From: Pseudorhodoplanes sp.
GTDB taxonomy: Bacteria; Pseudomonadota; Alphaproteobacteria; Rhizobiales; Xanthobacteraceae
Length of the DNA: 64,000 bases
Direction of reading: 5' to 3'
Assembly: GCA_032027085.1 (NCBI GenBank)
Contig: JAVSMS010000001.1
Location: 3,759,730 to 3,823,729 of the forward strand
This document shows, one piece after another, positions 2,192 through 5,152 of the stretch; within the stretch, counting starts at the first letter, position 1; every line of letters begins with the position of its first letter. Both the position numbers and the translations under genes were made by a program. The notes under the pieces are model-generated. The model was not told the origin of the DNA. It saw nothing but the letters and a program-made list of their open reading frames with translations, and searched no databases.

Positions 2192-2677
2192 TCAGCGCAA
2201 CGGCACCTCTGCGACCTTGTCGCGATAATCCCGTTTGGGATCGGCGCCGAGCAGCATCTTCAGGCCGGAGAACAGGCTCGAGTCATCCTGCCAGATCTCC
2301 GCGCGCTCGGCGTCAAAACGCAGCAGCGCCAGCTTCGGATCGTCCTTGCCGCCCTCGAACCAGGCGGCGACGTAGGGATTCCACAGCTTCTCGATCATCG
2401 CGCGATTGTTGTCGAGATGCAGGCTGCCATGCAGCGTGGCGAAGAGATCGTGGCCTTTGGATGCGAAGGTCGCGATGGCGCGGTCGCCCTGCCCGAGATG
2501 TTCGACGATCTCGGTGTCCTTCGCGGTGAAGAACCAGATCGGACTTCTGTCGTCCTCCACCATCGCCGTCATCGGCCGCGCATGGCCGTCGTCCACGCCG
2601 TCGAGCCCGAGCATCATGGTGCGGTCGGATGACAACGCCTTCCAGAATTGCGCTTCGAGTTCCTGCGGCGTGGGCAT
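2192..2677 (-). CDS. Pyridoxamine 5'-phosphate oxidase-fold general stress protein
   Basis: 161 residues from ATG 2677, preceded by CGGAGAACG. The open frame continues upstream for over 100 codons, but that part is Arg/Pro-rich, has no homologue that I recognise and lies in the leader described separately. Residues 2-150 (PTPQELEAQFWKALSSDRT, then MTAMVEDDRSPIWFFTAKDTE, IATFASKGHDLFATLHGSL) match the small 'general stress protein 26' group of the split-barrel FMN/F420-binding fold. Such proteins bind flavin, but few have a known reaction. The very long 5' leader is the unusual part. Confidence 0.87.
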   Translation of the reverse strand: MPTPQELEAQFWKALSSDRTMMLGLDGVDDGHARPMTAMVEDDRSPIWFFTAKDTEIVEHLGQGDRAIATFASKGHDLFATLHGSLHLDNNRAMIEKLWNPYVAAWFEGGKDDPKLALLRFDAERAEIWQDDSSLFSGLKMLLGADPKRDYRDKVAEVPLR

Positions 2678-2689
2678 GTCGTTCTCCGT

Positions 2690-3231
2690 TGCGAGGTTCA
2701 CAGAGCGAACGGACGGCGCGCGCGAAGGTTCCTGCGAGGCTGCGGTTGCGGATTCGATTGTCAGACAGCGTGACGCGATCCCGCGGCGCTGAGGCGTCCG
2801 GGGTTTGCACCGTGGCTCCCGACACGGTCCTTGCGTTTCGCATCTCGGGCGAGCCCGACATGCGAGGGAGCGGAGCGCCGGAAGGCGCTGCTTCACCAAC
2901 CACGCTGGACGGCCTTGAGCTTTCGCCTCCGGCCGCCCGGCGCCGGCATCCTTGCGCAGGATGCCCCGCCTTCCAGCGCTCCACTGCGGCGTTCTGATGG
3001 GGCCCGACAGCGCGGGACTGTTCCCCACCAACCCCGGGCCGCGCTTCCCGGACCGCGCACACGTGGCCGGTCCGACTTAAGCAGGCCTGCTGCGCCCCGA
3101 TCATAGTGTCGGAGGGGCGGAGCCCCGGGGCCACCCGAGTGCGGATCGCACGTTACGACCCGCCCGCAGGGCGCCGCACCCACCCCGCGTTGTTGCAGCG
3201 TCCTGCAGAACGCCCCTCGCTGGGATGAGCA
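2690..3231 (-). ncRNA. Candidate structured non-coding RNA or long 5' leader
   Basis: About 540 bp with no credible gene, between the PPOX-fold gene and a near-consensus promoter at 3238-3266 reading into it. In the transcribed (minus) strand several hairpins are visible: GGACCG...CGGTCC near 3040-3070, GGCATCC-TGCGCAA-GGATGCC near 2945-2965, and GGGGAAC...CCCGCGCTGTCGGGCCCC near 3000-3030. All three frames are Arg/Pro/Gly-rich, as expected of untranslated GC-rich DNA. It matches none of the features I know for RNase P RNA, tmRNA, 6S or SRP RNA. It could be an independent RNA, a regulatory leader of the PPOX gene, or decayed DNA that happens to sit behind a promoter. Confidence 0.35.
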
Positions 3232-3237
3232 CAAGAA

Positions 3238-3266
3238 GGTATATATTCTTATAGGAATTTTGTCAA
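3238..3266 (-). promoter_or_regulatory. Sigma70-type promoter, TTGACA-17-TATACC
   Basis: On the minus strand TTGACA (3266-3261) is followed after exactly 17 nt by TATACC (3243-3238); TATATA lies two bases nearer at 15 nt spacing. The block is AT-rich inside very GC-rich DNA. Perfect -35 hexamers are uncommon in this kind of genome and usually mark strongly transcribed units. The predicted start is near 3231, over 550 nt upstream of the PPOX gene. Confidence 0.6.
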
Positions 3267-3328
3267 TAACCCGCGCCGAGAATTTTTCGGCGTCATTCCG
3301 GGGCGCGCCGAAGGCGCCGTTCCCCCGC

Positions 3329-4241: not shown

Positions 4242-4691
4242 TCACTTCACGCCGAGCAGTTCGACGTCGAAGATCAGCGTTGCGTTCGGGGGGATGACGC
4301 TGCCGGCGCCGCGCTCGCCATAGCCGAGCTGCGGCGGAATCACGAGCGTGCGCTTGCCGCCGACCTTCATGGTGGCGACGCCCTCGTCCCAGCCCTTGAT
4401 CACGCGCCCGGCGCCGACCGGAAACTCGAAGGGCTGGCCGCGATCGACCGAGGAGTCGAATTTCCTGCCCTTCTGCCCGTTCGTGTAGAGCCAGCCGGTG
4501 TAATGCACCACGGCGGTCTGGCCCTGTTTCGGCTGCGCGCCCTTGCCGACCGTTGTGTCGGTCATCTGCAGGCCCGACGGCGTGGTGACAGGCTTTGACT
4601 GCGCGGCGGCTTCCTCTGTCATGACGGTGACTCCGATTGTGGTGAAGGTGAGCGCGGCGGTCATCAGAGCAGCGCGGGTGAATTTCATCAT
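4242..4691 (-). CDS. Periplasmic FKBP-type peptidyl-prolyl cis-trans isomerase
   Basis: 149 residues. Start at ATG 4691 with AGGAGG nine bases upstream; an ATG ATG doublet leaves a one-codon uncertainty. A signal peptide ([20 protein letters not shown], cut after EEAAAQ) exports it. Residues 40-149 form one complete FKBP domain: [20 protein letters not shown], then [36 protein letters not shown] and [11 protein letters not shown]. The Tyr, Phe-Asp, Val-Ile-x-x-Trp and Tyr of the proline pocket are all present. It speeds prolyl isomerisation of envelope proteins. It probably heads the small operon that continues into the DUF2214-like gene. Its ribosome-binding region is copied in the tandem repeat just upstream. 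Confidence 0.93.
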
Positions 4692-4695
4692 CGAG

Positions 4696-5152
4696 GCTTT
4701 CCTCCTGTCTGTTGCGGCATCGTAGCGTAGGTTGAGCGGAGCGAAACCCACGATCGCGCTCCTTGGACGTGACGATGGGTTTCGCTGCGCTCAACCCATC
4801 CTACGAATCCTCGACATTGCAGCCCGTACGGAGCGAAGCGGAATGCGAAATTGCGTCAGCTCGAACAAAACCCGGATTTCGCGGAGCCTGTCATCGGGCC
4901 GCGCTTCGCGCGGACCCGTTGGCTCCATCCGGGCTACGTCGCTTTCCTCCTGTCTGCTGCGACATCGTAGCGTGGGTTGAGCGCAGCGAAACCCACGGCT
5001 GCGCTCCTTTGGGTGACCACGATGGGTTTCGCTGCGCTCAACCCATCCTACCAAGCCTCGACATTGTAGCCTGCACGCAGCGTAGCGGAATGCAGGATTA
5101 TCTGCACGCGATGAAAACCCGGAATTCGCTGTCGCTCCATCCGGGCTACGTC
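4696..5152. repeat. Tandem duplication (245 + 212 bp) carrying two palindromic REP-like units
   Basis: Unit A runs 4696-4940 and unit B 4941-5152. The first 40 bases of each match at 37 of 40 positions, and both end in GCTCCATCCGGGCTACGTC. Each unit holds an imperfect palindrome with arms GAGCGnAGCGAAACCCA and TGGGTTTCGCTGCGCTCA, then a second motif (GCGnAGCGGAATGC). The palindrome belongs to a class scattered through Bradyrhizobium-like genomes. The duplicated segment includes the reverse complement of the FKBP gene's AGGAGG leader, so a piece of that leader is present twice. Nothing in it looks coding. Confidence 0.85.

Follow-up and report, generated by a model that had tools for sequence, protein, structure and literature searches.

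A dispersed, covarying RNA family of Pseudorhodoplanes and its relatives with a palindrome-switching, putatively self-pairing loop

Introduction

Large structured bacterial RNAs without an assigned function make up only a few known classes; three of these, the large and ornate RNAs OLE, GOLLD and ROOL, were recently shown to form RNA-only homo-oligomers (PMC12286853). For OLE L9.3 and GOLLD L21a, the argument for intermolecular bridges includes symmetric loops that covary between palindromes (PMC12286853). Much smaller sequences are also dispersed in bacterial genomes: Br-REP1 and Br-REP2 of Bradyrhizobium relatives are intergenic repeats of tens of bases without a promoter of their own (PMC5082802). 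In addition, candidates for mobile or repeat sequences form a category in genome-wide searches for non-coding RNA (PMC11109978).

The locus described here lies in a 64,000-nucleotide stretch of DNA from Pseudorhodoplanes sp. (hereafter, the window). Its RNA is closest in kind to OLE, GOLLD and ROOL, yet belongs to none of them by family model. Like these, it is a large, elaborately folded and conserved non-coding RNA of unknown function. Unlike these, it matches no Rfam family in the copies tested, is confined among the sampled genomes to one alphaproteobacterial family of soil bacteria and one outlier, reaches up to 18 dispersed copies per genome, and carries a full six-base palindrome in at least seven variants, from which a dimer is predicted. 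The locus probably specifies a large structured non-coding RNA of a new family, which would have its own promoter, homodimerise, act in trans and be amplified as a mobile-like gene. This reading builds on the family, its fold, the conservation of its promoter, the covariation of its palindromic loop, its copy number and its lineage-wise clustering, all of which were established by computation.

Distribution of the RNA family

A DNA search located four other places in the same genome with 89–92% identity over about 220 nt, together with one weaker place, and in relatives many more divergent matches spread along a unit of about 480 nt. A covariance model of the central 138 positions of the RNA (R1), built from 17 copies, detected 16 copies with E<1e-5 in the own genome. 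Within the same GTDB family, 45 of the 120 genomes sampled have copies, at most 18 apiece; G006, a genome of the genus that consists of a single contig, has 11. Eight copies were found in one genome of another family of the same order (249 order genomes sampled), while 289 sampled genomes of the class contained none beyond those of the own genome. There was no copy among the 6–9 Mb genomes listed for g40, a genus of the same GTDB family that is presumably Bradyrhizobium. A single pattern scan of named genomes provided 81 loci, from Pseudorhodoplanes, Pseudolabrys, a metagenome-assembled genome labelled Rhodopseudomonas, and Hyphomicrobiales or Alphaproteobacteria.

The family is previously undescribed and absent from Rfam 15. 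At gathering score, Rfam 15 gave no family match in the window, and its sole match at 14 other loci was a 6S RNA beside one copy; a permissive search of the stretch and six loci returned merely unrelated sub-threshold matches. Open literature on small RNAs and repeats of Bradyrhizobium, and on Pseudorhodoplanes, yielded no description of the family; an overlap with the sRNA BjrC1505 is possible, although the listed genomes of g40 have no copy. Distant blastn searches of plasmid and phage collections gave no match to the RNA. Among contigs classed as viral, one of metagenomic origin has a copy of the RNA at its very edge and starts within it (L180, 1–125), so that carriage by viruses is no more than a possibility.

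Promoter and limits of the transcription unit

The RNA unit appears to be transcribed as a unit of its own from a sigma-70-type promoter, which would yield an RNA of about 470–490 nt, with a predicted start near position 3231 in the window copy. An earlier note on this DNA had read TTGACA, 17 nt and TATACC on the minus strand at 3266–3238, and the sequence is exactly so (Table 1). A generic consensus promoter scan passed over the site, as the -10 hexamer TATACC does not end in T; support for the window promoter comes instead from conservation across copies, since sequence comparison finds it retained in paralogues and relatives. Indeed, the pattern TTGAC-N17-19-TANNN[TC] occurs upstream of 44 of 82 distinct copies, compared to 6 of 2887 equal-length windows from the same loci. 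Approximately half of the copies fail this strict pattern; some of these have a TTGAC-type box that does not fit it, or are preceded by conserved motifs of an unrelated kind, among them GTTACGC.. or TTATCCCCG..CTTACA in some copies of other genomes. Copies without the TTGACA promoter that are preceded by GAAAAAAAGTTACGCACGC.. or CTTATCCCCG-N~17-CTTACA include L142, L150, L152, L128, L096 and L049, as well as L120, L121, L130, L175 and L177–L179; the alternative motifs are perhaps recognised by another sigma factor.

Two further elements were observed around the promoter. A dyad, TAGGATTATATTCCTA or TCCTA-NN-TAGGA, is frequent in the -10 region (window 3238–3262; upstream of L082, L113, L073 and others) and could be an operator. 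Just upstream of the window promoter lies the palindrome CGTCATTCCGGGGCGCGCCGAAGGCGCCG (3291–3319), which is similar to the published Br-REP2 repeat of Bradyrhizobium relatives (PMC5082802), and a sequence similar to it precedes the paralogue L068.

In near-identical paralogues of the own genome, homology extends from the -35 box to just past the 3′ hairpin P10, the flanks being unrelated. A U-run terminator is absent at the conserved 3′ end of the unit. The earlier note had extended the non-coding stretch from the promoter up to a PPOX-fold gene. Its start at the promoter holds, whereas the unit itself begins with the -35 box (3266) and reaches about 2760, and the last ~80 nt before the PPOX-fold gene (ATG at 2677, minus strand; Pfam Pyrid_ox_like match) fall outside it. 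The reading frame of the PPOX-fold gene (window 2192–3031, minus strand) is open far upstream into the RNA gene, with a TTG at 3031, and the family match begins near the ATG at 2677; automatic annotation may wrongly lengthen the protein by about 118 residues.

Table 1. Features of the RNA locus in window coordinates.
Feature	Position	Strand	Remarks
Sigma-70-like promoter	3238–3266	-	-35 TTGACA 3266–3261, 17 nt, -10 TATACC 3243–3238
Structured non-coding RNA gene	2760–3231	-	~470 nt; predicted start; 3′ end (..GCGGGATCGCGTCACGCTGTCTGAC) placed at the limit of conservation
P1 stem	3181–3227	-	Outer arms 3227–3222 and 3186–3181, enclosing P1a; outer column pairs with up to 19 double changes
Hairpin P1a	3197–3214	-	GGCGTT-CTGCAG-GACGCT
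Palindromic apical loop CTGCAG, proposed homodimer kissing loop	3203–3208	-	Palindromic in 53/55 distinct 5′ domains, seven hexamers
Central domain	2986–3177	-	Closed by P2: GCGGCG 3177–3172 with CGCCGC 2991–2986
P3 hairpin (helices 1 and 2 of R1)	3134–3170	-	Double changes in 6/6 inner pairs
P4 long helix	3030–3132	-	3132–3124 with 3038–3030; encloses P5, P6 and P7
P5	3114–3095	-	Conserved loop YAYUAnGR
P6	3093–3080	-	
P7	3076–3048	-	Variable
P8 long hairpin domain	2872–2984	-	Arms GTGGAGCGCTGGAAGGCG 2984–2967 and CGCCTTCCGGCGCTCC 2887–2872; arms covary in all groups
P9 hairpin	2838–2866	-	
P10 3′-terminal hairpin	2780–2803	-	CCCCGGACGCC..GCGCCGCGGG; last conserved element

Fold and covariation

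The predicted fold has three parts: hairpin domains at the 5′ end (P1/P1a) and the 3′ end (P8–P10), with a multibranched core (P2–P7) between them. In a plain MAFFT alignment of the 17 founding sequences, 98.6% of the cells in the R1 stems pair, 15 of 26 pairs are changed in both partners, with a covariation score of 0.471 versus 0.168 ± 0.015 for shuffled alignments. The 80 matched sequences from the named-genome scan, whose alignment was fitted to R1 and somewhat favours the model, give 98.7% of cells pairing, double changes in 16 of 26 pairs (326 double-change cells) and a score of 0.478 versus 0.144 shuffled (0/500). When the pairing partner was slid by one to three columns in the 80 sequences, the score was 0.018–0.065. 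Covariation is also seen beyond the core, in the outer stem of P1 and in the P8 long hairpin.

The unannotated, possibly undescribed structured RNA proposed in the earlier note is borne out by covariation over 80 homologues, a conserved promoter, the absence of an Rfam 15 match in the window and the other copies tested, and 16 own-genome copies beside unrelated genes; the several GC-rich hairpins that it had noticed are present and covary. One of the checks that it had suggested, covariation in related genomes combined with an Rfam search, returned conserved structure, no Rfam family and no protein-coding pattern. The multi-copy state, the dispersal and the self-complementary loop go beyond what had been seen then.

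Dispersed palindromic sequences might also arise at the level of DNA, and a non-autonomous repeat of the MITE or REP type, with stems as relics of palindromic DNA and incidental transcription, is a rather improbable explanation that agrees with several observations: the units are dispersed, intergenic, amplified per genome, and mostly without a common neighbour gene. However, G-U pairs are common among the alternative pairs in the covarying stems, and since these pair in RNA and not in DNA cruciforms, they argue for RNA. Moreover, the promoter is conserved at one fixed end, no terminal inverted repeats of MITE length were seen in the own-genome paralogues, and the unit is far longer and more elaborate than REP elements (PMC5082802). 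It shares with Br-REP1 and Br-REP2 the dispersal in intergenic regions of related bacteria and the RNA hairpins, but unlike them is about 480 nt long and promoter-headed and has a covarying multihelix structure.

A self-complementary loop that switches palindromes

Hairpin P1a has the general form GGCGYY-(N)-hexamer-RCGYC. Its loop was assessed by a column-wise palindrome test, using an alignment blind to palindromes and copies with the short 5′ layout, after 13 copies with another 5′ layout had been left out beforehand. Without slack, 48 of 55 distinct 5′ domains have a palindrome, one of six hexamers, at one and the same column start; when two positions of alignment slack are allowed, the P1a loop is palindromic in 53 of 55, with seven (TCATGA, TCCGGA, TCTAGA, ACCGGT, CTGCAG, CTTAAG and TCGCGA). 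Further copies have the palindromes CTCGAG and TGGCCA. All four self-complementary dinucleotides occur at the centre (AT 19, CG 17, TA 10, GC 7). The remaining strongly palindromic columns are mostly single invariant stem sequences, e.g., GGCGCC. An extension of the stem could explain the outer loop positions, but not the two central ones, because these cannot pair within one molecule. The palindrome is kept, with few exceptions, in copies of other genera and of the outlying family; the divergent copies L079 and fL015 have a four-base palindrome only. Within the own genome, the copies differ from each other, with CTGCAG in the window and TCATGA, TCCGGA or TCGCGA elsewhere.

A self-complementary loop whose palindrome switches between sequences is what P1a has in common with OLE L9.3 and GOLLD L21a (PMC12286853), and by analogy it may serve as a kissing loop for homo-oligomers. 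If dimerisation is real, the different palindromes within the own genome imply that the copies should form separate populations.

P1a is perhaps not the sole state of this region. Its 5′ arm can alternatively pair with the linker before the P1 3′ strand (mean longest helix 4.49 versus 3.81 shuffled, 0/500), and this pairing could, on weaker evidence, provide a monomer/dimer or assembly switch. Dimerisation initiation sites of the HIV-1 type consist of a six-base palindrome in a hairpin loop of 6–9 nt, with a possible alternative pairing of the stem. The new RNA resembles them in both respects, as an analogy of mechanism only, whereas it is bacterial and chromosomal and is unrelated to them in sequence and context. 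When minimum-free-energy hairpins were tested automatically for palindromes, 49 of 97 first hairpins and 26 of 787 control loops were palindromic; this test was dropped as unreliable, because single-sequence folding often chose another first hairpin.

Genomic context and amplification

The copies lie between unrelated genes, the 16 of the own genome included. At 56 of 77 loci the gene downstream runs in the same direction and at 21 it is convergent, and the upstream gene is co-directional at 36 versus 38 (n = 74). This excess of co-directional downstream genes would be expected of a cis-acting leader or a promoter donor for the following gene, in the window the PPOX-fold protein, and repeated occupancy of the same position points in that direction too: the site upstream of hppA is occupied in several genera (L077, L083, L132, L153, L190) and that upstream of serS in three genomes (L099, L106, L138). 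However, the downstream genes are unrelated between copies, the unit ends with P10, about 100 nt short of the PPOX start, and in G007 no copy immediately precedes the PPOX homologue; a copy occurs about 1.2 kb away, beyond another gene. A leader or promoter donor is improbable overall, and the long regulatory leader that the earlier note had offered as its alternative is not favoured, because the downstream gene differs between copies and is convergent in 21 of 77 cases. Still, some copies may affect neighbour genes, and read-through or promoter donation may be exploited at some sites.

The repeated occupancy of housekeeping sites (hppA, serS, rpoH) is unlike most sites, and the recurrence at hppA and serS implies that some sites are old or preferred. 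Copies adjoining rpoH are L075, L101 and L161. The copy 5′ of thrS in the own genome (G000) was not found upstream of thrS in the genus's other seven genomes. In five of these, the upstream sequence available amounts to at least several hundred bases, whereas in G005 the contig ends just upstream, so that this genome carries little weight. The thrS site could not be aligned with those of the other genomes.

Paralogues of the own genome are 95–98% identical over the unit, with sharp ends at unrelated sites. The core tree groups copies largely by genome, and for 50 of 75 copies the nearest neighbour comes from the same genome. L071 and L075 have a common body but not a common promoter, which suggests gene conversion between sites. 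No clear target-site duplication was found, and neither was an exact empty site in two Pseudorhodoplanes sister genomes, in which the flanks lie on different contigs. These patterns are consistent with an RNA gene that spreads or is homogenised as a unit, and amplification could proceed by transposition or by gene conversion.

A mobile-like spread and a large structured RNA might also be expected of an RNA that once served an RNA-guided nuclease or other mobile-element protein as guide or scaffold (IscB/IsrB/TnpB-like omega RNA, HEARO) and has lost this protein. This is very unlikely, given that neither HEARO nor any other Rfam family matches the copies tested and that no nuclease or transposase recurs among the flanking ORFs of the loci examined. 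Recurrent neighbour proteins are restricted to housekeeping contexts such as hppA, serS and rpoH, and genes for transposases, integrases, nucleases or helicases showed no association with these loci; the RNA resembles the mobile or repeat candidates of genome-wide non-coding RNA searches (PMC11109978) in its multiple copies per genome, but differs from them in this respect. A conserved protein-coding region has a negligible chance of being the explanation: the long ORFs that cross the stretch are expected in a high-GC genome and exist mechanically, in line with the earlier note, which had seen no credible gene, whereas single-base and other non-triplet indels between 90%-identical copies, large variation in loop length even between close copies, and compensatory stem changes speak against a conserved reading frame.

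Proposed mode of action

For the promoter-headed, dimerising RNA favoured here, the palindromic P1a loop would allow two molecules of the same copy type to pair loop to loop, and the functional form would most likely be a homodimer or a nucleus for a larger assembly made of RNA only. The RNA would act in trans, not on the gene beside it. Duplication to new intergenic sites, or homogenisation among sites, would involve the complete transcription unit, -35 box and last hairpin included, giving rise to up to ~18 copies per genome. A bolder version is possible, though doubtful: the RNA gene might be a mobile element in its own right, whose RNAs recognise only RNAs with the same palindrome, so that each genome would hold several mutually orthogonal self-assembling populations and assembly itself would be selected.

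The new family extends the few large structured RNA classes by one that covaries strongly, offers many natural variants within single genomes and has a repeatedly switching palindrome. Self-recognition of a natural RNA becomes directly testable: pairing is predicted between copies that share a loop sequence, and not between copies whose loops differ. A further question raised by the family is how a gene for a non-coding RNA multiplies in a bacterial genome without a recognisable mobility protein.

The window contains another apparent dispersed repeat, consisting of two intergenic palindromes (4722–4802 and 4966–5052) of the form GTAG-GTTGAGCG(C/G)AGCGAAACCCAC and its complement, which share one intergenic stretch upstream of the gene at 4242–4700.
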